This document shows positions 10,264-24,451 of a stretch of DNA of 45,617 nucleotides, in pieces. Numbering within the stretch: position 1 is the stretch's first letter; each line of letters starts with the position of its first letter. A model generated the notes under the pieces. The model was not told where the DNA came from. It was given only the letters and a program-made list of their open reading frames with translations, and made no database searches. This stretch comes from Methanobacteriota archaeon (GTDB taxonomy: Archaea > Thermoplasmatota > Poseidoniia > Poseidoniales > Poseidoniaceae), in the NCBI GenBank assembly GCA_002692465.1, contig NZKH01000005.1, forward strand, positions 21,361 through 66,977. Direction: 5' to 3'. The position numbers were made by a program, and so were the translations under genes.

Positions 10264-10399
10264 TTGGCAACTGAAATTTACCCTAAAATAAGCAACATGA
10301 AAGCCTAAGGAAGGGCATTGTTTATAGTCAGCAAATTACCCTCAACCTCTTAATGTGTTTGTTCGTATAATACTTTCAACATATTAGGATGGGAAATTG

Positions 10400-13300
10400 A
10401 TGTATCTAAAACGCCTCGAAATGGAGAACTTTAAATCATTCAAAGGCGAAGTTGTAGTTCCTTATGAAAGAGGGTTTACTGCAATTACTGGACCTAATGG
10501 TTCTGGAAAAAGTAATTGTGGTGATGCCATACAATTCGTCCTTGGATATAAATCAGCAAAAGATGTTCGTGCAAGTAATGTACTTGATCTTTTATTTAAT
10601 GGTGGGAAAAATAACAAACCAGCAAAATATTGTAAGGTTTCACTAATTTTTGATAACCCAGAAGATTCTGACGGCAGCAGAAGACTAAAAATTGATGCTG
10701 ACGAAGTTCATTTTACTAGAACTGTAAAGAAAACACGTTCAGGTGCGGCTTCATCAAATTATTACTTAAATGGAGAGCCAAGCAGCCAAAGGCAATTTAA
10801 ATTATTACTTTCAAGCGCCAATGCAAGAGCAGATGGTTACAACATAGTGCTTCAAGGAATGGTTACCGAATTAGCAACAATGACTGCCATAAATCGTAGA
10901 AAAGTGCTTGAAGAAGTAGCAGGAGTTACTTCTTATGATGATGAAATACGCAAGGCAGATAGACAAAGAAAAAGGGTTGAAGAATACTTAGAGAGGATTG
11001 AACTCCTAGAAGAAGAATTAAAAATAAGACTTAAAGATTTGAAAGCCGAAAGAACGCAGGCTCTAAAATACAAGGAATTGAAAAATGAATTAGATGATGC
11101 TAGAATCTTATTACACCAATCGAAATATTGCAGCGCTCAAGCAGAAATTGAATATGTTGCTCAAGAACAAAGTAATTGTATTAAAGAATCAAAAGAAGCC
11201 GCACAAAAAGCACAAGATGGCGAAAAGCAATTAATGAACATTGAAGAAAAGGTAATCGCAATTGAAAAACAAATGAGAGAATTATTAGGCGATGAAAGTA
11301 GTTCATTAATGGATAAATTAAACCAATTAAGATTAGAAATTGATAGGAGATCTGACAAAATTTCAGAAGCTGAACAAGCAATTGAGGAGAATTTAGACAA
11401 TATTGGTTATTACGGAGAAGATGCTGAAGAAGCAGCAAAAAACCTTAATGAACATATATCCAAACAAGAAGAGGCAAAGAAATCACTACAAGAAGCAAAA
11501 GATGCGTTCAAAAAAGCAGAAAAAGATGAAAATGATGCTAAAAAAGCACTCATGGCAGGTGATAAAGAAACAAATTCCCTCACTAGAGAATTAGGTAAGG
11601 CAAATCAAAAAGTAAGTGACTCCGCTGCAGAATTAACAAAAATACAACTAGAATTTGATAGGTCTGAACAAGCATATGATTTGTCATTAAAACACTTGGC
11701 AGCCCTACAAGAAGGCGAAGAAGAAGCCAGATTATCAAGAGACGATTTATTAATGCAGGGTGAAGAAATAAAAACAGAAGATTCCGGAGAAGATAGGGAA
11801 AGTTTAGCAACTCAATTAACTCAAAGACAAAGAGAAGAGCAAAAACTCAAAGAAGAACATGATACAATCAATAGCAAATTGATTTCTTCTGAAAGAGATT
11901 TAGCAAAAGCAAGAGCAGAAATGGAAAATAAAAGTGGAATCAGAGGTGGAATGGCAATGGCCGTTTCATCACTCCTAACTCAAAGAGATGAGGGGAAGAT
12001 CAAAGGAATATTAGGAACTTTAAGTCAATTAGCAAAACCAAAAGATCATGCTCATGAAAATGCTTTGGCAACTGCAATAGGCGCTGGAATGCAAAGCATT
12101 ATCGTAGAAACAGACGAAGTAGCAGCAAGATGCATTGCTTGGCTTAGAGAAAATAAAGCAGGTAGAGCAACATTTTTACCACTAAACAAATTACAAGTTA
12201 GAAGACCAAGTGGAAAAGCATTAATGCTAACTAAAGAAGAAAATGTAGAAGGTTTTGCCTGGGAATTATTAGATTATGATCCAAGAATTGAATTGGCAAT
12301 AAAATATGCACTAAAAGATACATTACTAGTTAGTAACCTTTCAACCGCTAGAAAACATATGGGCGGAGTCAGAATGGTTACTTTAAAAGGCGACTTAACT
12401 GAAGCCGGAGGGGCCATGGTTGGAGGAAATCAAAGAAGGAATCGTATTCTTTTTGGCGGTCAAATCGCAGGAAGTGGAGAAGTAGAAAGACTAGAAGCTG
12501 AAATAAATAGATTGCAATTACTTAGTGATACTGTTCAATCTGCATTAATAGAATCAAGAAAACAACAACAACTAGTACATCAAAAAATTAACAATCTAAC
12601 CACAAATGATAGTATTGCTAAAGTTAAACAATGGAAGATAGAACTTGATGCTGCCGAAGATAAATTACAAAAAATAACAAAAGAGATCTCCAACGCTCAA
12701 AAATCAGTAAATGAATCAAAGAGAACAAGAGACAATAGTGAGGAAAAATTAATTTCAGCAAATAAGGCATGCCAAGATGCTGAACAAGAGAGGCAAAATG
12801 CAAATTTAGAATTACAAAAAGCAAGCCCAGAACACTTACAAAAAACTTTGAGAGAAGTGCAAGAACTTAGAGTAAATGCACAAGGAATTCAAGTTAAAGC
12901 TGAAGCGCAATTGTCTGGTGGAGAAGAACATACAAAAATTCTAAACGATAGGTTAAATGAATTAAATTCAAAAATTAAATCATTTAAACAAGATTCAGAA
13001 ACTAAGAAAAATTCAATTGTTGAATGGAAGAATCAACAAAAATCACTAAAAAGTGAATTAAAGGAACTTGAAGACAAATATTCTACAATTTCAGAAGAAA
13101 ATAAAGAACTAGAAAATTCAAGGGTTAAATTAGTAGAAGAAAGAGGTAGTTTAAGAACTACAGTAAATCAACTAATTCAACAATCGGAATCTGCTAGAAG
13201 GAGGGCTTCCGAACATACAATCACACTAGAAAGTAAAAGAGAATTATTAACTTCATTAATTGAAGAAATGGAAATAGCTGGAGTTAACCCCCCAGAAGCC

Positions 13301-14311
13301 GGTGCATCAATACCTACAGTCGCACAAGCAGAAAATAAAATCAGAGGAATTGAAAAGAGATTAGAGTTTATTGGCAATGTAAACATGCTTTCTATAGAAC
13401 AATATGATAAAACTGAAACTAGGTTAGATGAATTAAAAACAGACAATAAATTATGCCAAGCAAGAAGGAAATCACTAATCGATATTTCTGAAAAACTTGA
13501 AAAGCAACGTAAAAAACGTTTGATTGCTGTGTTTAAAGAAGTTAATAAGAATTTCAAAGAAGTATATAGATTACTTTCAGATGGTGGAAGGGGTGAGTTG
13601 AAACTAGAAAACCCTGAAAACCCATTCAAAGGTGGTTTAGAAATGTGGTGTCAACCAAAAGGGAAAAGTTCCAGGGCAAAACTAAACGGTCTTTCTGGAG
13701 GTGAAAAATCGATGGCAGCGTTGTCTCTTATTTTTGCTGTTCAAGATCATGACCCATCCCCATTCTACTATTTTGATGAAGTTGATCAAAACTTGGATGC
13801 ATTCAATGCAGAGAGAATCGCAAGACTATGTAGGGCAAGAGCAAATAGCGCTCAATTCCTAATGGTTACTCTAAGAAAAGTAAGTTTACAATTGGCCGAC
13901 CACCACATAGGCATTACACATGCAGGAGATGGTTGTAGTAGAAGAATCGCTGATTTCAATAGAGAAAGAGCAATAGAACTAGGCGAAAAGGCAGAAAAGA
14001 TTCGAGAAAAAGCAGATAAAGCGATGAATGAAAAGAGAGAGAAGTTAGCTCATCTTCCAACTGAAAAAGACATGCCTGAAGTTCCTGAACCATTATCAGC
14101 ACCACCAAGTCTAGGTGGTCTAGATATTGAGATTAAAGGAGAAGTACCATTAAAGAAAGATTCTTCAATTGCAGCACTTTCTGAAAGGGCTGAAGAATTA
14201 AAAGAAGATATTGAAGAATTACAAGAATTAAAAGAAGCAATAAGAGAAGTTGAAGCAATAGAAAATGAAGAAATCCAAATTAATCAGTTAGAGCAAACTG
14301 AGGAGCCCTGA
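10400..14311 (+). CDS. smc: Chromosome segregation protein SMC, with an extra C-terminal tail
   Basis: SMC ATPase that compacts and organises the chromosome with ScpA and ScpB encoded just downstream. 1303 residues. N-terminal head: YLKRLEMENFKSFKGEV and Walker A TGPNGSGKSN; long coiled coils either side of a hinge (about 520-680; includes GILGTLSQLAKPKDH and GGAMVGGNQRR); C-terminal head with signature LNGLSGGEKSMAALSLIF and Walker B FYYFDEVDQNLD. The head ends near residue 1183 (HAGDGCSRRI); about 120 further residues form a charged helix, a Pro-rich stretch (PEVPEPLSAPPS) and an acidic coiled coil, which normal SMCs of about 1180 residues lack. Start taken as ATG 10400; TTG 10397 is adjacent. 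Confidence 0.95.
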   Translation: MYLKRLEMENFKSFKGEVVVPYERGFTAITGPNGSGKSNCGDAIQFVLGYKSAKDVRASNVLDLLFNGGKNNKPAKYCKVSLIFDNPEDSDGSRRLKIDADEVHFTRTVKKTRSGAASSNYYLNGEPSSQRQFKLLLSSANARADGYNIVLQGMVTELATMTAINRRKVLEEVAGVTSYDDEIRKADRQRKRVEEYLERIELLEEELKIRLKDLKAERTQALKYKELKNELDDARILLHQSKYCSAQAEIEYVAQEQSNCIKESKEAAQKAQDGEKQLMNIEEKVIAIEKQMRELLGDESSSLMDKLNQLRLEIDRRSDKISEAEQAIEENLDNIGYYGEDAEEAAKNLNEHISKQEEAKKSLQEAKDAFKKAEKDENDAKKALMAGDKETNSLTRELGKANQKVSDSAAELTKIQLEFDRSEQAYDLSLKHLAALQEGEEEARLSRDDLLMQGEEIKTEDSGEDRESLATQLTQRQREEQKLKEEHDTINSKLISSERDLAKARAEMENKSGIRGGMAMAVSSLLTQRDEGKIKGILGTLSQLAKPKDHAHENALATAIGAGMQSIIVETDEVAARCIAWLRENKAGRATFLPLNKLQVRRPSGKALMLTKEENVEGFAWELLDYDPRIELAIKYALKDTLLVSNLSTARKHMGGVRMVTLKGDLTEAGGAMVGGNQRRNRILFGGQIAGSGEVERLEAEINRLQLLSDTVQSALIESRKQQQLVHQKINNLTTNDSIAKVKQWKIELDAAEDKLQKITKEISNAQKSVNESKRTRDNSEEKLISANKACQDAEQERQNANLELQKASPEHLQKTLREVQELRVNAQGIQVKAEAQLSGGEEHTKILNDRLNELNSKIKSFKQDSETKKNSIVEWKNQQKSLKSELKELEDKYSTISEENKELENSRVKLVEERGSLRTTVNQLIQQSESARRRASEHTITLESKRELLTSLIEEMEIAGVNPPEAGASIPTVAQAENKIRGIEKRLEFIGNVNMLSIEQYDKTETRLDELKTDNKLCQARRKSLIDISEKLEKQRKKRLIAVFKEVNKNFKEVYRLLSDGGRGELKLENPENPFKGGLEMWCQPKGKSSRAKLNGLSGGEKSMAALSLIFAVQDHDPSPFYYFDEVDQNLDAFNAERIARLCRARANSAQFLMVTLRKVSLQLADHHIGITHAGDGCSRRIADFNRERAIELGEKAEKIREKADKAMNEKREKLAHLPTEKDMPEVPEPLSAPPSLGGLDIEIKGEVPLKKDSSIAALSERAEELKEDIEELQELKEAIREVEAIENEEIQINQLEQTEEP

Positions 14312-14325
14312 GAGGTGGTTGATAA

Positions 14326-15345
14326 ATGCAATCAAAACTTGATTCATACTTCATTCGAGAAGACATAATTAACAATTTATTGGAAAATAGAGAGGAAACC
14401 AGAGAGGAAGCAATAGATTATGCTGATCGTTTATTAACTATTGCAGAAATGGAAAATGCGGAATACTCTTCATTAGTTGACCCCTTTGATCGTTCAGTAG
14501 CTTTAGTTTTTGAATTAGTTAAAGATGCTGAGTTAGATCCTTGGAATATTGACTTGACTTCTTTTGTTAATTTATTCAGTGAAAGAATAAAAAAGAATTC
14601 AGATAATATTGATTTACCTTCATGTGGAAGATTGCTTAGGTTGGCATGGGCTGTTTTAAGAGGACAAGTCGAAGATTTATTAGATCGTCAGAATAAAGCA
14701 GACATGGATGATGAAATTGATGATTACTTTATCGACGAGGGTTGGATGACTGATTTTGATGATAATGAATTTAATTTCACAAATAACGTTATTTCTGGAG
14801 AATTGGAAGCAGATCTTAATGGTTTATTTGAGGAAAGGGTCCGTAGAGAAGAAGGCAGACCTGTAACATTAGGTGATTTATTAGGTGCTTTAAGAGGTGC
14901 TTGTGACGATGCTGAAATAAATAAAATTAGAGAAGAAAATAGAATTAAATATAAATTGGAAGTTGAAGAAGCTCTAGGAAATGTAGGAGCAAGAATGCAT
15001 GATGAAAATTTAGAAGGCGATATCGAACTATGCTGGAATTTAATGAGAGAAATGAACAAAGATGGCGAAATTGATTTACAAACATTATCTGATGGAGTTG
15101 CTAAGGAAATTAAAAAGGAAAGTGGTGAAGAAATAGATGTTTCTTCCGAAGCTAAAGTAACTGGGCTCGTTTCTATGTTATTCTTAACTCATAGGGGTTT
15201 TACAGATATTGAACAAAAAGATGTGCCTAATGGAAAAATAAAAATTAAAGATTTATGGCCAAAAATAAAAAGTTGGGAGTCAATTAATGAAAAATTCAAA
15301 GAGGAAAATAATTCTTTTAACGAGGTGGTTGAAGTTGACAGCTGA
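14326..15345 (+). CDS. scpA: Segregation and condensation protein A (kleisin)
   Basis: Kleisin subunit that bridges the SMC heads. 339 residues, longer than bacterial ScpA (about 250). The signature DPFDRSVALVFELVKDAELDPWNIDLTSF (residues about 47-75) and FVNLFSERIKK are typical ScpA. A very acidic insertion (about 125-155, with DDEIDDYF and DFDDNEF) interrupts the middle; the C-terminal winged-helix part has KVTGLVSMLFLTHRGFTDIEQ. ATG 14326 lies 8 nt after GAGGTG (14312-14317), 14 nt after smc ends. Position between smc and scpB supports the call. Confidence 0.9.
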   Translation: MQSKLDSYFIREDIINNLLENREETREEAIDYADRLLTIAEMENAEYSSLVDPFDRSVALVFELVKDAELDPWNIDLTSFVNLFSERIKKNSDNIDLPSCGRLLRLAWAVLRGQVEDLLDRQNKADMDDEIDDYFIDEGWMTDFDDNEFNFTNNVISGELEADLNGLFEERVRREEGRPVTLGDLLGALRGACDDAEINKIREENRIKYKLEVEEALGNVGARMHDENLEGDIELCWNLMREMNKDGEIDLQTLSDGVAKEIKKESGEEIDVSSEAKVTGLVSMLFLTHRGFTDIEQKDVPNGKIKIKDLWPKIKSWESINEKFKEENNSFNEVVEVDS

Positions 15346-15928
15346 ACTTCAAACATTAATTGAAGCAACTCTTTTTGGTGTTGGAAAATCTATGAGCGTT
15401 GAACAACTTTCACAGGGCTTAAAGGCTGACGTCTCCTTAGTAAGTGAAGCATTACTTGGTTTGCAATCATCATTAAAAAGAAGAAGAGGAGGTGCTTTGC
15501 AATTAGTAGAAATTTCTGGGAAATGGGCTTTAGAAGTAAAACCAGCAATTGCCGATAAATTACCTAAAGATGCAAAAACTGAAATTCCTGCAAGGTTACT
15601 TAAAGCAGCTGCTCTAATTGCATACCACCAACCGATGGAACAATCTAGTTTAGTAAAACTTCTCGGAGAAAAGGCATATGGTTACGTAAAAGAATTATCT
15701 GATGCAGGATTAATTGACAGAAGACGTTCGGGAAATACTAGAAGATTAACTACAACGAGAAGATTTTCTGAAGTGTTTGGATGCCCGCATACAAATCATA
15801 AAAAGGTCAGAGAATGGTTTAGAGAAAGATCTGAACAATTAGGAATGAATGATGGAAATTCAACACCTATAGCTCTGGAAGAAGAAATAAACTCAGAAGA
15901 AAATATTGACATCGTGGTAGAAGAATAA
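15335..15928 (+). CDS. scpB: Segregation and condensation protein B
   Basis: ScpB-type tandem winged-helix protein binding ScpA; 197 residues from TTG 15335. The start was chosen because GAGGTG (15322-15327) lies 7 nt upstream and the protein then reads (M)TAELQTLIEATLFGVGKSMS, the usual ScpB opening 'ieA.Lf..g.p.s...L'. The second domain holds RLLKAAALIAYHQPMEQSSL and GLIDRRRSGNTRRLTTTRRFSEVFG, matching the family's 'LlAYrQPvtr..i' and 'G.i....pG.p..Y.TT..Fl..fG'. Overlaps the scpA end by 11 bp, indicating coupled translation. A short acidic tail follows. Confidence 0.9.
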   Translation: MTAELQTLIEATLFGVGKSMSVEQLSQGLKADVSLVSEALLGLQSSLKRRRGGALQLVEISGKWALEVKPAIADKLPKDAKTEIPARLLKAAALIAYHQPMEQSSLVKLLGEKAYGYVKELSDAGLIDRRRSGNTRRLTTTRRFSEVFGCPHTNHKKVREWFRERSEQLGMNDGNSTPIALEEEINSEENIDIVVEE

Positions 15929-15976: not shown

Positions 15977-16606
15977 ATGAGTTTTTCCAAGTCAATTTTT
16001 TATGGAGTGAAATTGTATTTTTTCGTTTCATTAGCGATTGGTTTGAGTTTTTTCATAGACATTCAACGTAATGATCTTAAAGGAAATCTTGAAGCAAGTT
16101 TTTCCTACATACAAGACTCTATAGATATTTTGACTCTTGCTTTCCCATTATTTTGTTTCTACATAGGTTCAAAACAATCAAATTTAATTAAAAGAAAAAC
16201 AGACTCTGGATTCGCTGCCGCAATTAGTGCTGGTATTGGATTTTTAATGATAACATACATGAATTGGGGAATTACGTACGGTAGTTTATTAATTGCTGAT
16301 GCAATTGAAATAATTGAAAATAATGATAATACATTTAATTTAGAATCAATTAATGAAATTATTTGGAGGATTATACCAGCAATTTTAGCTGGTTTATTCG
16401 CAGCCATAATTAACAGTAATAACGAAATCACTATTCAATCAGGTTCAAAAAAATCAATTAAAAATGAAACTGAAGAATCATCTCCTACACCCTGGGTTTA
16501 TTCAGTAGGTACCATTGATGAACATGGATTTGAATGGATCAAACACAACAATAAACAATGGTATAGAGCAGCAAATAGTGGTAACGAATGGAAAGAATAT
16601 TCTTAA
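15977..16606 (+). CDS. Small four-helix membrane protein with aromatic C-terminal domain
   Basis: Unrecognised. 209 residues with four likely membrane helices: about 11-30, 50-70 (LTLAFPLFCFYIG), 80-105 (AAISAGIGFLMITYMNWGI) and 125-145 (IPAILAGLFAAII). After a polar linker, the last 40 residues contain spaced tryptophans and tyrosines (WVYSVGTIDEHGFEWIKH, then NKQWYRAA and NEWKEYS), which looks like a small beta domain. It follows scpB by 48 bp on the same strand and ends 1 bp from the convergent HMG-CoA reductase gene. Function unknown. Confidence 0.65.
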   Translation: MSFSKSIFYGVKLYFFVSLAIGLSFFIDIQRNDLKGNLEASFSYIQDSIDILTLAFPLFCFYIGSKQSNLIKRKTDSGFAAAISAGIGFLMITYMNWGITYGSLLIADAIEIIENNDNTFNLESINEIIWRIIPAILAGLFAAIINSNNEITIQSGSKKSIKNETEESSPTPWVYSVGTIDEHGFEWIKHNNKQWYRAANSGNEWKEYS

Positions 16607-16607
16607 A

Positions 16608-17909
16608 TTAACTAGACGAACGATATTTAGCCAAACAATCTTCAATTAATTTTGCTGTAATTCTTTCTCCACTCGAATGTGCTAAACTAACTACGGCATC
16701 TACTTCATCATCATTAGCACCCGCAGTTACAGCCATATTTCTTGCATGTAATTTCATATGTCCTGCCTGAATACCTACTGTAGCTAATGCTCTCAAAGCA
16801 CCCAAATTTTGGGCTAATCCTGCCGCAGCCATTACTTTAGCAAGGTCATTTGCAGAATTAATACCCAATAAGGCAACATTTGTTTGTGCTGCAGGGTGAA
16901 CTCTTACTGCACCTCCAACTAAACCAACTGCCATTGGTATCTCTATAGAACCAAATAAATCACCATCATCATTCTTTTCCCAATGTGTCATTGAACCATA
17001 TTCTCTATTATAAGAAGCATAACTATGTGCCCCAGATTCAATAGCTCTCCAATCTTGTCCACATGCTATAGCAATTGGAGAAATAGCATTCATTATTCCC
17101 TTATTATGAGTTGTAGCCCTAAATGGATCTGCTGCAGCAAAATGATAAGCCTGAATTACACCATCAATAATCTCTTCACCTCTTTTTACGTCTTTACCAT
17201 CATCTGACATTTCCTCACGCGTAAAAATTGCACTTACTCTAGCCAATCTATGCACCGCTAAATTAGAAATTATCCTTAAAATTACAGTTCCTCCGGTGAT
17301 TGATTCAACCTTTGGTGCTATAGTTTCTGCCATTGTATTTACTGCATTTGCACCCATTGCATCTCTACAATCAACTAATAAATGTAAAATCAACATGTTT
17401 CCAGAGTTTGTTTCAATGATTCTAGCTTCAATATCTTTACATCCACCACCAAATTTTACTAAGATAGGATCCACTTCATTACATAATTCAATTAAATGCT
17501 CTTTTTGGGATAATATTGCTTCTTTAGAAGCATTAACATCAGTGCAATGAACTACCTGTATCTGCCCAATCATTACAGGATCATCATTATTTGAAGTAAA
17601 ACCACCCTTGATTTGACATCTTTTAGCCATATTACTTGCTGCCGCAACTACAGAAGGCTCTTCTAATACGAAAGGAATAAGATAATGTTCATCATCAATA
17701 ACAAAATTAGTAGCGACTCCTATTGGTAAAGAATACGTTCCAATTACATTTTCAATCATTTTATCTGCAGCTGATTCCGATAATTCACCTGTACTTGCCC
17801 ATGCTGAAACTTGTTCATCATTCAAACCAGCAATTTCTGCTAATAAATTTCTTCTTTCTGAGACACTCAATTTGTAAAAACCTTGAAGCCGACTATTGTT
17901 AACTGCCAT
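16608..17909 (-). CDS. mvaA: Hydroxymethylglutaryl-CoA reductase, class II type
   Basis: Makes (or in some bacteria degrades) mevalonate; in an archaeon it should feed isoprenoid membrane-lipid synthesis. 433 residues. Close in pattern to Pseudomonas mevalonii class II enzyme: SADKMIENVIGTYSLPIG (class I/II ENVIG motif), VEEPS-like LEEPSVVAAASNMAKRC, DCRDAMGANAVNTMAE (NAD(P)-binding DAMG.N), THNKGIMNAISPIAIACGQDWRAIE split over the catalytic Lys region, IPMAVGLVGGAVRVHP, and the C-terminal flap with QAGHMKLHARN (catalytic His). ATG 17909 follows GGTGAGG. Class II enzymes in Thermoplasmatales-like archaea are known as transfers from bacteria. Divergent from the repeat array and AAA gene. Confidence 0.93.
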   Translation of the reverse strand: MAVNNSRLQGFYKLSVSERRNLLAEIAGLNDEQVSAWASTGELSESAADKMIENVIGTYSLPIGVATNFVIDDEHYLIPFVLEEPSVVAAASNMAKRCQIKGGFTSNNDDPVMIGQIQVVHCTDVNASKEAILSQKEHLIELCNEVDPILVKFGGGCKDIEARIIETNSGNMLILHLLVDCRDAMGANAVNTMAETIAPKVESITGGTVILRIISNLAVHRLARVSAIFTREEMSDDGKDVKRGEEIIDGVIQAYHFAAADPFRATTHNKGIMNAISPIAIACGQDWRAIESGAHSYASYNREYGSMTHWEKNDDGDLFGSIEIPMAVGLVGGAVRVHPAAQTNVALLGINSANDLAKVMAAAGLAQNLGALRALATVGIQAGHMKLHARNMAVTAGANDDEVDAVVSLAHSSGERITAKLIEDCLAKYRSSS

Positions 17910-17966
17910 GTTCCTCACCACGTGCTATTGATTATATCCCTAAATCATTCCGCTTCTTCTTTGATG

Positions 17967-18026
17967 GATTAACGCAAATTAACGCGTTAATCAAGCGTTA
18001 ATTAAGCGTTAATCAAGCGTTAATTG
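17967..18026 (+). repeat. Phased 11-bp repeat array, left cluster (GCGTTAAT iterons)
   Basis: Four direct copies of GCGTTAA start at 17984, 17995, 18006 and 18017, exactly 11 bp apart; the units alternate GCGTTAATCAA and GCGTTAATTAA. Two inverted copies (TTAACGC) start at 17969 and 17979, and the inner one forms a perfect 14-bp palindrome with the first direct copy (17978-17991). One-turn-of-helix spacing would present every site on one face of the DNA. It lies in the gap between the divergent HMG-CoA reductase and AAA/winged-helix genes. Candidate binding sites for an initiator or regulator; which protein binds is unknown. Confidence 0.85.
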
Positions 18027-18071
18027 ATATATTTTAAAATTTATTGTATTGATTAAAAATGCTTTGGGTGA
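18027..18071. other. AT-rich core between the two repeat clusters
   Basis: The stretch up to 18060 is almost pure A/T with only isolated G, including a run TATATTTTAAAATTTATTG. It lies between the left and right repeat clusters. Its placement resembles a DNA unwinding element in a replication origin, but an AT-rich promoter spacer would look the same. Confidence 0.4.
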
Positions 18072-18118
18072 TGCGTTTTTATACGTTAATCATACGTTAA
18101 CAATGCGTTATTAACGCA
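18072..18118 (+). repeat. Phased 11-bp repeat array, right cluster
   Basis: Three degenerate copies of the same unit start at 18082 (TACGTTAATCA), 18093 (TACGTTAACAA) and 18104 (TGCGTTATTAA), again 11 bp apart, preceded by a weaker TGCGTTTTTA at 18072. The last overlaps an inverted copy TTAACGCA, giving GCGTTA-T-TAACGC (18105-18117). The cluster is 66 bp (6 x 11) downstream of the left one, so both share one helical phase. It covers a possible TATA element TTTTTATA (18076-18083) and would overlap the transcription start of the gene at 18153, as an autoregulatory operator would. Confidence 0.75.
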
Positions 18119-18152
18119 ACCTTGTTAAACCTATTATAATTCTGAGGGTGTT

Positions 18153-19772
18153 ATGGTAGATGCAAAACATATTCCCTTTGATTTACCTAATATGAGAATC
18201 AACCCCTTTAACATTAAACCACTGAATCCTAAAGACAAACCACTTCTTGTTGGGAGAAATGAAATCATTTCGAAAATTATTGGGTGGTGCAAGCACAGAT
18301 CTTCCAGGATGATACTACTTATAGGAAATAGAGGCACCGGAAGGACTTCTTTGCTAAATTTAGTAGGAAATGAAGCATATAAGCACTTTCAATTCAACCT
18401 ATTTCCTACAAAAGACCCTATGAAGAACCTTTTAGAGGAATTATATATCACAATAGTATCTGATTTTGAAGTTCCAAGAATGCATCAACAATTACAAGAA
18501 AATTTAATCAATTCCATCCCAGAAACTGGAAGGTTGCCAATATTGAGTTTTGATTACCCCAATATTGCAGGAAGTGAAATTGCTGATGTTTTCAAACAAT
18601 TATCCCAAATTTTAAGATCATTGGATGCAGTCTCAATCATAGCTTTAACGCCCGCGCAATTAGCAACTTGGCCACAAGAACTAATTGATGAATTTGATGA
18701 AGAAATAAAAATAAATTCATTTAATAATTCTGAAATAAATGAAATGATTGCAAAAAGAGTTAATTCCACATGTAGAGAAAAATGGAAACCAACCAAAGGT
18801 TTAGTTGAGGAAATCCAAGAAAGAACATCAGGGCACCCTTCTGAATCAATTAAATTAATGAGAAAAATAGTACATAATGTAAAAAATAAAGAAGATTATG
18901 ATTCTGAATTAAATCAATTATTTTCAAATATTAATTCGAAAACAAATGATTATTCCATCGAGAATGAAGAAAAAATTCAAGATGAACAAATCGAAGAAGA
19001 AAACATAGATGATTCTGAAAACATAGATACTAGTTTTGAGGAATCCGAAGAAATTCAAGAAGAAATAGAGTATGAGCATCATGAAGAATTTGAAACACCT
19101 CAAATAATTGATGAAAAAATAGATTTTGTAGATGATGATGAAGAATATAATAAAATAATACCTGAAGAACTTGATGAACCTCCATTGCCTACTGGCGTGT
19201 TTGGGAAATTAGGTGGGAGGACAAGAGATAGGAACAAATCAATGAGGAAAGATGGTTTTGCAGTTTTCCGCTCGGATTTAGAAACCATGAAAAAACTACA
19301 AGATAATACCCCCGCAGAAACACCAATATTAGAAACTGAAGATGGTAATATATTATGGATTGATGATCAAATTATTTCAAAAACAACTTTTGGCAATGAA
19401 TTTGAACACAAAAAATTACAAACTGGAATTAATATCCAAGAACAGAATTCATTTGAAAATACATTGATGGGAATTCAAGAAAACAAGACATTTTCTCCGC
19501 CAGAACAATCATTTAATCTAGACATTGAAAAATTAAGATCATTAGATAGTAACGAAATAAAAGTAATTCAACTATGTTCTAAACGTGAAATTTCACCCTC
19601 AGACGAAGAAATGAGAAATATGCTAGGAGGAATTGGAAGAACTAGGCTTTCTCAAATATGTAATGGACTACACAAGCAGGGCATTTTAAGTGTTAAAAAA
19701 ATAGGACGATCGAGAATGTTCTATTTATCAAACAGTGCAAAATCACAACTTATGGCGTGGGGTAACTTGTGA
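18153..19772 (+). CDS. Divergent AAA-type ATPase with C-terminal winged helix
   Basis: 539 residues. N-domain: INPFNIKPLNPKDKPLLVGR then a P-loop-like GNRGTGRTS (58-66) in which the usual Lys is Arg64; a Walker-B-like RLPILSFDYPN has a single acidic residue; an AAA lid with ERTSGHPSESIKLMRKI follows. Residues about 255-345 are a highly acidic, low-complexity linker. The C-terminus (about 465-539) is a winged helix: DSNEIKVIQLCSKREISPS, GRTRLSQICNGLHKQGIL, KKIGRSRMFYLS. The order AAA then winged helix recalls Orc1/Cdc6, but I cannot call it an orthologue. GAGGGTG (18143-18149) precedes ATG 18153. The repeat array directly upstream could be its binding site. Regulator or initiator are both possible. 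Confidence 0.7.
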   Translation: MVDAKHIPFDLPNMRINPFNIKPLNPKDKPLLVGRNEIISKIIGWCKHRSSRMILLIGNRGTGRTSLLNLVGNEAYKHFQFNLFPTKDPMKNLLEELYITIVSDFEVPRMHQQLQENLINSIPETGRLPILSFDYPNIAGSEIADVFKQLSQILRSLDAVSIIALTPAQLATWPQELIDEFDEEIKINSFNNSEINEMIAKRVNSTCREKWKPTKGLVEEIQERTSGHPSESIKLMRKIVHNVKNKEDYDSELNQLFSNINSKTNDYSIENEEKIQDEQIEEENIDDSENIDTSFEESEEIQEEIEYEHHEEFETPQIIDEKIDFVDDDEEYNKIIPEELDEPPLPTGVFGKLGGRTRDRNKSMRKDGFAVFRSDLETMKKLQDNTPAETPILETEDGNILWIDDQIISKTTFGNEFEHKKLQTGINIQEQNSFENTLMGIQENKTFSPPEQSFNLDIEKLRSLDSNEIKVIQLCSKREISPSDEEMRNMLGGIGRTRLSQICNGLHKQGILSVKKIGRSRMFYLSNSAKSQLMAWGNL

Positions 19773-19782
19773 GGGACATTTT

Positions 19783-20778
19783 ATGCTAAAATGGGAAGTT
19801 TTTTATAGCCATAAATTTCAAGGAGTGGTGACTTCTATAGAATTTAATCAGACTGGTATTGCCATTTCAAATGAAAAACATATTTGTTTCTTAGATTTTG
19901 ATGGAAAACAAAAATGGAGAATAAAAATGCCATTCAAACCATATAAAATAAGAACTAATGAAAATTTGCTTGGTGTTTTAATGGGTAATGGATTTGTAGT
20001 AATTGATTCTAATAATGGAGAACAGTTGCATGAAGGAAGATCAACACAAGGAGGTTTTTCAGACATCATACATAGGCCTGGCGGAGGATGGATACTATCC
20101 GATCGTCATGAACAATTACATATTTTCAACAATCAAGGGTTTGGAATTAAAAGATTGTTCTCTGGCAAAATTAGAAAATTATTAGGATGGATTGATAGAG
20201 ATCACCTAATAATACATGATGGAGATGGTTGCTTACGTTGTATAAGGTTGAAAATGAGTACAACACAAAGACAAATTGAAGATAGGGTTTGGTCCTGGTC
20301 ATCAGAATTAAAAAACGGGGAAGTATTAGTTCAATCACTAGATGGGAATATTTGGAAGGGGAGACCAAATATTTCTGGTTGGGATAGTCTTGAGCTTTTT
20401 GATGAAAATTGTTTAGAACCATTTAAGTCGATATGGACTATAGATGGATGGTGGATTTTAGATATGGAAAATAAAATTTTTAATAAAAAAATAGAACAAA
20501 ATTTCAATAATTTTGGCGATATAGTTGCAAGTAACTCTGAAAATTTATTTACAATTGCAAATAGAGAAGGCCTAATTAGAATTATAGGTTCTGGGGATTT
20601 AATTAAAAAGAAAAAGGAAAAAATAAGATTTGAATATGAAAATATGAAATTGTCGTTAAATTCTGAAAAAAGAGAGAAAATATTCAAAATGGCTAAAAAT
20701 GCAGAGTTAATGAATGATTTTGAAAGAGCAAATGAATTATTTAAATCAATAGGAATTGAATACGAGGAAGGTGTTTAA
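19783..20778 (+). CDS. Beta-propeller-like protein of unknown function
   Basis: 331 residues, no signal peptide or membrane segment, so probably cytoplasmic. It shows repeated short beta-strand blocks typical of WD40/PQQ-like propellers: GIAISNEKHICFLDFDGKQKWRI, GVLMGNGFVVIDSNNGEQL, GWILSDRHEQLHIFNNQG, and DHLIIHDGDGCLRCIRL. The last 45 residues are helical and charged (KREKIFKMAKNAELMNDF, then ERANELFKSIGIEYEE). The start at ATG 19783 gives MLKWEVFYSHKFQG, 10 bp after the AAA gene ends. It lies in a likely operon with the AAA/winged-helix gene and a DUF357 gene. Specific role unknown. Confidence 0.65.
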   Translation: MLKWEVFYSHKFQGVVTSIEFNQTGIAISNEKHICFLDFDGKQKWRIKMPFKPYKIRTNENLLGVLMGNGFVVIDSNNGEQLHEGRSTQGGFSDIIHRPGGGWILSDRHEQLHIFNNQGFGIKRLFSGKIRKLLGWIDRDHLIIHDGDGCLRCIRLKMSTTQRQIEDRVWSWSSELKNGEVLVQSLDGNIWKGRPNISGWDSLELFDENCLEPFKSIWTIDGWWILDMENKIFNKKIEQNFNNFGDIVASNSENLFTIANREGLIRIIGSGDLIKKKKEKIRFEYENMKLSLNSEKREKIFKMAKNAELMNDFERANELFKSIGIEYEEGV

Positions 20779-23263: not shown

Positions 23264-24451
23264 TCAAATATTAAATTGCCGATTAAGGTTTAATTCAAGC
23301 CTATTTATCAAATCAGAAGGCAAGATATTAGGCATCGATAAAAGTTGAGTTCTACCCCTTCCTTGAGGCATGGAACCGTATTTACTGGATAAAAAGTCAT
23401 TATTTTCTAAATTTTTAATATATTTCCATAATGTTGTATGTCCCTTTGGTGTTTGATTATATTCTTCGCATACAACTTTATACAATTGTTCTGCATCTCC
23501 ACTTGTAATTTCTGATTCTTTTTTCAAACGCCTACAAATTGCTAATAATAATAATTGTAAATGTGGTCTTAAAGTATCAACAACATGTGGTTCTACTGCT
23601 ATTACTTCCTTACTAGATATTGTCTGTATATCTTCTGGAATGATATGCTTCCTACCTTCTTTTTCAGCATTTTTTGCTGCACCTTCTATTAAATGTAAAA
23701 CGTTTCTTGCATCACCTTTTGAAGCTGCAGAACTTGCTATTAAATCCAATACTTCATCATCATAAGATTCTTTAAACAATGATAATTCAGCTCTTTGCTT
23801 AGCAATTTCAAATAAACCATCTTTATTATAACCACTAAGCCTAATATGATTACCGACACCTAACCTTGAAATTACTGCACCTTCCAATAAATTCAAAACT
23901 ATCTCTTCTTGGCTAATTAAAATCAAGGATAATGTCCCCTTACCTTGTTTATCCTCATCAATTCTTAATAATTTGTAAAGAATATCATTTCCTTCCTTCA
24001 TCAAAATATGATTTACTTCATCTAATATTATCAAAAAATGTTGATTTAAATTCCTCAGAATTTTTCTAATACTTGAAAGCACTTCACTAGAAGATAAACC
24101 CCTAACAGGATAGCCAGGGTCTAATTTTGTTATCACTTTATGAAGGACTTGAGGAGATGTATTGAAATTTCTACAATTTATATGAACATGAGATATACTC
24201 CTTTTATTTGAAAAATTAAGTTCAAGATCTTTAGCAAATACCTTTGCTAATGCAGTTTTACCAGAACCAACTGGACCAGTTATTAACACATTACAACTAG
24301 TTTCAGGTAAAATAATTGTGCTAAATTTTGTAGCTAAATCAACTAATTTGTCATCCCTCCCAACTAAAGATGTAGGTATATAATCAAAACTTAATGGTTC
24401 TACATCTTTCAGTACCAAACCAGCACCTATTCGGTCAAGATATCCAGCCAT
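23264..24451 (-). CDS. cdc6: Orc1/Cdc6 replication initiator
   Basis: 395 residues. AAA+ module: SLVGRDDKLVDLA, Walker A GPVGSGKTALAK (59-70), Walker B FLIILDEVNHI, sensor 1 SLILISQE, arginine-finger region AVISRLGVG, and sensor 2 KGDARNVLHLIEGAA; then a C-terminal winged helix with QTPKGHTTLWKYIKNLE and PQGRGRTQLLSMP. In archaea these proteins bind origins and load MCM; the gene often lies close to an origin. Here a small inverted repeat lies immediately upstream (24471-24501), and the phased repeat array is about 6 kb away. ATG 24451 is the natural start (MAGYLDRIGAGLVL). Confidence 0.9.
   Translation of the reverse strand: MAGYLDRIGAGLVLKDVEPLSFDYIPTSLVGRDDKLVDLATKFSTIILPETSCNVLITGPVGSGKTALAKVFAKDLELNFSNKRSISHVHINCRNFNTSPQVLHKVITKLDPGYPVRGLSSSEVLSSIRKILRNLNQHFLIILDEVNHILMKEGNDILYKLLRIDEDKQGKGTLSLILISQEEIVLNLLEGAVISRLGVGNHIRLSGYNKDGLFEIAKQRAELSLFKESYDDEVLDLIASSAASKGDARNVLHLIEGAAKNAEKEGRKHIIPEDIQTISSKEVIAVEPHVVDTLRPHLQLLLLAICRRLKKESEITSGDAEQLYKVVCEEYNQTPKGHTTLWKYIKNLENNDFLSSKYGSMPQGRGRTQLLSMPNILPSDLINRLELNLNRQFNI

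Follow-up and report, generated by a model that had tools for sequence, protein, structure and literature searches.

Our data show that in the order Poseidoniales (marine Group II) an array of GCGTTA(A) boxes lies directly upstream of the gene at 18153 and its orthologues, at a single place in each chromosome, and is conserved in two families and some 20 genera. We consider it probable, at roughly 60%, that this element is a two-cluster, helically phased operator of the 18153 gene, bound by the gene's own product. The boxes lie at the promoter of the gene for their putative binder, are conserved together with it and are tied to it in position. An operator for this gene was one of two functions proposed in the sequence-only reading of this DNA, and it gains support from the presence of one locus per genome, the fixed distance to the gene, the contact with the promoter in many genera and the ArsR-type winged helix of the product.

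The window, the whole 45,617-nucleotide stretch analysed here, spans positions 21361-66977 of contig 5 of a MAG of 1.50 Mb in 90 contigs. Ten boxes are found between the HMG-CoA reductase gene on the minus strand and the gene for a 539-aa protein on the plus strand, a pair of inverted ones preceding a run of four direct boxes, followed by a second run of three that an inverted box closes (Table 1). Direct boxes follow each other at an 11-bp step inside each run, and the last distal direct box (18017) is separated from the first proximal one (18083) by 66 bp. The sequence-only reading had described most of this correctly: the four GCGTTAA boxes with their 11-bp steps, the 66 bp between the clusters and the three inverted copies are all present where it placed them. 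Its three weaker copies do have 11-bp steps, but each begins one base later than it had stated (18082, 18093 and 18104), and the near-pure A/T core that it reported is an AT-rich spacer (79% A+T versus 60% and 67% in the flanks) in which nearly pure A/T is limited to about 18023-18058. An additional partial box, GCGTT at 18073, is out of register. The expectation of a four-box 11-bp array in 100 dinucleotide shuffles of the window is 0, and GCGTTAA occurs 9 times in the window against 1.9 expected. The back-to-back pair TAACGCGTTA recurs across relatives, in 26 cases (offset 4). A search for structured RNA gave no Rfam match within 16500-20000.

Table 1. Coordinates of the array and its neighbours (positions in the window)
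Feature	Position	Strand	Remark
HMG-CoA reductase, divergent neighbour	16608..17921	-	in place in 48/48 relatives examined
Inverted box TTAACGC	17969..17975	-	outer edge of distal cluster A
Inverted box	17979..17985	-	forms palindrome TTAACGCGTTAA with next box
Cluster A, four GCGTTAA boxes at 17984, 17995, 18006, 18017	17984..18023	+	direct, 11-bp step
Spacer between clusters	18024..18082		79% AT in source genome
Cluster B, promoter-proximal: ACGTTAA 18083, ACGTTAA 18094, GCGTTA 18105	18083..18110	+	direct boxes, phased with cluster A
Inverted box closing cluster B	18111..18117	-	adjoins core promoter
Presumed core promoter and short leader of AAA/wH gene	18118..18152	+	TATA-like stretch; leaderless or nearly so
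539-aa protein: AAA+ (about 25-245), disordered linker (about 276-450), winged helix (about 455-539)	18153..19772	+	proposed array binder
Second orc1/cdc6 gene (orc1b), Walker A and B intact	23264..24451	-	linked to array throughout order

The array is strongly associated with one gene. When a strict box pair (GCGTTAN5GCGTTA) was searched in 58 relatives from the order, 66 of the 68 matches were found directly upstream of the 18153 orthologue, within 300 bp of its start, in 41 genomes. In a wider sample the strict pattern is present in 167 of 244 order genomes, mostly in 1-3 copies, and the reversed control is mostly zero. Genomes that lack a strict pair have, where inspected, degenerate arrays at the same place, and divergent genera carry reduced arrays upstream of the orthologue. 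In G014, a complete relative, the array pair scores 25.7 and the next best pair of the genome 16.7. Lack of conservation of the array in relatives had been named beforehand among the outcomes that would refute the sequence-only reading, and the opposite is decisively the case, since the array is kept across the order. The single location is not accompanied by avoidance of the box elsewhere: this idea was rejected by the observed/expected ratios in G014 (0.89 for GCGTTA, 1.05 for GCGTTAA). We likewise rejected the idea that genus g19 had lost the gene together with its array, since most g19 genomes have the gene with reduced arrays; where the gene is absent orc1b is absent too, so that the whole segment is probably either unassembled or missing. 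Five genomes (G049, G366, G376, G422 and G304) are without both the AAA/wH gene and orc1b, the segment being either unassembled or lost with both genes together.

We also looked for a link to viruses and rejected it. Matches to the array pattern turned up in 58 viral contigs, which is nothing special given that control words and spacings gave 38 to more than 120, and no viral homologue of the 18153 protein was found. Six viral contigs (L229, L230, L252, L257, L258 and L279) have GCGTTAC arrays with 11-bp steps inside phage genes; of 8 ORFs tested, 6 match replication initiation proteins in PHROG. Such intragenic arrays resemble iterons of the lambda-O type and bear no relation to the archaeal 18153 protein.

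Spacing of the boxes follows the DNA helix also in relatives. Pooled distances between same-strand boxes peak near 11, 22, 42, 53, 77, 88, 109, 120, 130 and 142 bp. For inter-box distances above 45 bp, taken from one genome per genus in 17 genera, cluster-to-cluster phasing reaches R=0.68 at a period of 10.8 bp; with the proximal cluster shifted randomly by up to 5 bp R is 0.32 +/- 0.09, and 0 of 2000 trials reach 0.68, a p-value that is too small because the genera are related and their independence is overstated, although the effect is large.

The product of the adjacent gene is, as had been recognised from its translation, an AAA/winged-helix protein: its AAA+ part is identified by fold and its winged helix is of the ArsR type. 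AlphaFold models of 42 homologues have a confident AAA+ module and a confident winged helix with a disordered middle. The best Foldseek match of the whole protein is the Cdc6/Orc1 heterodimer on origin DNA (2qby_A, E 4.4e-7), followed by MuB, RuvB, ORC and clamp loaders, which places the AAA+ module in the initiator clade by fold. Sequence libraries return weak AAA_16/AAA_22 matches below the cut-off, and in the libraries searched the protein has no Orc1/Cdc6 family match (Cdc6_lid, Cdc6_C, TIGR02928). The Walker-A Lys is replaced by Arg, and the Walker-B Glu after Asp134 is absent, in 42 of 42 homologues, so that a functional pair of Walker A (GxxGxGKT) and Walker B (DE) is found in none of them; judging by these residues, ATP hydrolysis is unlikely. 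Taken alone, the winged helix matches ArsR/SmtB repressors in a profile search (BigR, E 4e-5; HlyU) and Rv0081, HlyU, CzrA and SmtB in a fold search. The near-invariant sequence of its recognition region, GRPRLSQI.NGL, agrees with the equal conservation of the box. Homologues are present in 56 of the 58 order relatives, with strong matches confined to the order; none was found in five genomes of the sister family of the same class, and the rest of the phylum gives weak matches. On these searches the protein is restricted to Poseidoniales, and neither its family nor the boxes match a described family in the libraries searched.

Our results show that the position of the array is tied to the start of the 18153 gene and not to that of the divergent HMG-CoA reductase gene. 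Measured from cluster A, the distance to the AAA/wH start has a standard deviation of 6 bp in family f2 and 18 bp in family f1, compared with 37 bp and 46 bp, respectively, for the distance to the HMG-CoA reductase start. The core promoter was presumed from a BRE/TATA-like motif that relatives conserve some 30 nt ahead of the start codon. Boxes or their GYGTGA variants abut this TATA-like motif in many genera (family f2 and genera g1, g2 and g15), in the divergent genus g19 GTGAAT doublets lie just before it, and in genera g9-g11 boxes end 30-40 bp upstream of it. These distances bear on the view that the array is a shared operator whose main target is the HMG-CoA reductase of isoprenoid lipid synthesis, with the regulator gene adjoining its target. 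The two genes are divergent and adjacent in 48 of 48 relatives, and regulators are commonly encoded divergently from their targets. However, whereas the AAA/wH start lies at a nearly constant distance from the array, the distance to the start of HMG-CoA reductase differs by more than 100 bp, and in f2 the array lies about 110-250 bp away from the HMG-CoA reductase start, so we hold it highly improbable that this gene is the main target.

The surrounding gene order is itself conserved: SDH-SMC-ScpA-ScpB-HMGR-array-AAA/wH-DUF357-PIN-eIF2gamma-orc1b-Dph2-MutS-MutL. An orc1/cdc6 gene about 6 kb from the array had been pointed out earlier, rightly; this second gene, orc1b, is 5-7 kb from the array in 8 of 8 genomes tested and in nearly all loci mapped, and the canonical orc1/cdc6 gene is located elsewhere. 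In two loci of genus g17 (L211 and L212) the PIN-eIF2gamma-orc1b block is inverted, so that orc1b adjoins DUF357, and the array with its gene is unchanged. Upstream of the canonical orc1 in L084, L087, L090 and L091 we noticed a conserved CTTAT...GGACTCGGACTC, which may be a promoter or a binding site.

Such a neighbourhood invites the view that the array is a main or secondary replication origin and an operator of the initiator gene at once, as in iteron plasmids, with the AAA/wH protein or Orc1b as the initiator at the boxes and the AT-rich spacer as the unwinding region. It is one site per chromosome, an initiator gene is linked to it throughout the order, the AAA+ fold is closest to Cdc6/Orc1 bound to origin DNA, and the two box clusters surround a spacer with a mean AT of 65% versus 57% in the flanks. 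Archaeal ORB origins bound by Orc1/Cdc6 likewise have clustered boxes on both sides of a spacer and an Orc-like gene next to them, but the sequence and spacing of the boxes look unlike ORB when compared by eye, the array of the complete relative is without a skew breakpoint, and the spacer is not consistently AT-rich, its AT content being just 39-57% where relatives are GC-rich. As the raw GC skew was too faint to interpret, gene-direction-corrected skew at fourfold sites was used in G014, the sole complete relative (one contig of 2,064,136 bp, an assembly with 4173 Ns). G+C skew is too weak for use by itself there, and the T-A skew describes a two-part chromosome that breaks at about 55 kb (broadly, 0-130 kb) and sharply at 1225 kb, with an untidy stretch from 0 to 0.55 Mb in which 320 kb is nearly as good a break as 55 kb; the strands of tRNA genes show the same tendency. 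With the array at 695 kb, 0.5-0.6 Mb from both breakpoints, an origin forced to this position lowers the log-likelihood by 54 units (by 35 with G+T-A-C skew). Taken over 17 loci, the local step in skew at the array is -0.038 +/- 0.009, its sign opposite to that of an origin, a value confounded by gene content since the same genes flank the array on the same strands in every genome; in G014 this step is extreme at 10-30 kb arms. The AAA+ catalytic residues, moreover, are missing in 42 of 42 homologues. A chromosome origin at the array is thus disfavoured, and we regard a main or secondary origin here as quite unlikely. The origin-like element seen by the sequence-only reading is not supported, given a degenerate AAA+ module, an AT core that is mild and lost in GC-rich relatives, and breaks at about 0.06 and 1.23 Mb in a chromosome with the array at 0.695 Mb; the skew extremum that it suggested looking for is not at the array in this one complete genome. 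The regions 1.217-1.225 Mb and 0-0.13 Mb of G014 are likely its terminus and origin regions, respectively, and its orc1/cdc6 genes, at 0.70 and 1.83 Mb, are at neither skew breakpoint. A repeat scan of G014 intergenic regions gave no convincing other origin candidate, and in the library searched we found no paper on Poseidoniales with a replication origin or orc1.

Another possible explanation is a centromere-like or condensin-loading site, at which a protein complex on the phased repeats would couple the chromosome to SMC-ScpAB and repress the gene as ParR does on parC. In parC of plasmid R1 two clusters of 11-bp phased direct repeats, bound by ParR, lie beside the promoter of the binder's own gene and mediate its autorepression. 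The array has the same two-cluster 11-bp layout beside the promoter of a putative binder gene, it is a single chromosomal site, and SMC-ScpA-ScpB is conserved upstream of it in nearly all loci examined. Yet the array is chromosomal, its predicted binder is a winged helix and not a ribbon-helix-helix protein, a scan of the neighbouring genes revealed neither a ParM-like partner nor another recognisable ATPase or filament gene of a par system, the linkage of genes is circumstantial, and the array lies about 0.6 Mb from the G014 skew minimum; we find this explanation very doubtful. The SMC, ScpA and ScpB genes form a block at 10397-15925 of the window, in which the match of ScpA is weak (Pfam 17.5 bits, below cut-off).

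The reading as an operator of the 18153 gene has known parallels, none of them exact. Plasmid Rep operators combine direct iterons and inverted boxes at the promoter of a gene for a winged-helix binder; our array is without evidence of replication and the 18153 protein without Rep homology. The C-terminal winged helix finds its closest matches, in sequence and in fold, among ArsR/SmtB proteins, but these are small sensors that stand alone and have one or two operators, whereas the 18153 domain is fused to an AAA+ module and faces a ten-box array. Orc1-2 of Saccharolobus islandicus, a non-initiator Orc1 paralogue, is a global transcription regulator (PMC9738581). It shares with the 18153 protein an AAA+ module of the Orc1/Cdc6 fold clade and a winged helix, and it binds promoter DNA, not origins, so Orc1-fold proteins are already known as promoter regulators. 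Orc1-2 is, however, a true member of the Orc1 family with a working ATPase, a winged helix of the Cdc6 type and many target promoters; the 18153 protein has a degenerate AAA+ module, an ArsR-type winged helix after a long disordered linker and a single dense target.

As to mechanism, we infer that the 18153 protein binds the boxes, that binding represses the gene and that wrapping or looping of the DNA occurs. The protein most likely binds GCGTTA(A) boxes, and several copies could bind side by side, touching through their AAA+ domains, since the boxes share one helical face both inside each cluster and from one cluster to the other. Bound copies would wrap or loop the 150-bp region, and occupancy of the promoter-proximal boxes would block or remodel transcription start, so that the protein might be held at a set level. 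Simple occlusion cannot be the mechanism everywhere, as in g9-g11 the boxes stop 30-40 bp short of the TATA-like motif.

It is more difficult to explain the number of boxes. A single dense target at its own promoter is unusual for a dedicated regulator, and six or more phased boxes exceed what autoregulation normally needs. Either single boxes at further targets escape detection, or this site serves a second purpose in the chromosome. Many boxes at one site are less well explained by an operator, which leaves room for the latter; that the array is the order's single chromosomal centromere or a secondary origin is nevertheless unlikely in our opinion. If this were true, a phased complex of a lineage-specific, Orc-like, ArsR-fused protein would set its own level and mark the chromosome for SMC loading, segregation or replication. 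For similar loci our results call for caution, since iteron-like arrays near orc1/cdc6 genes should not be named origins from their layout alone. The combination of a conserved element with a fusion of a degenerate Orc-like AAA+ module and a bacterial-type repressor offers a testable entry to gene control or chromosome biology in Poseidoniales.
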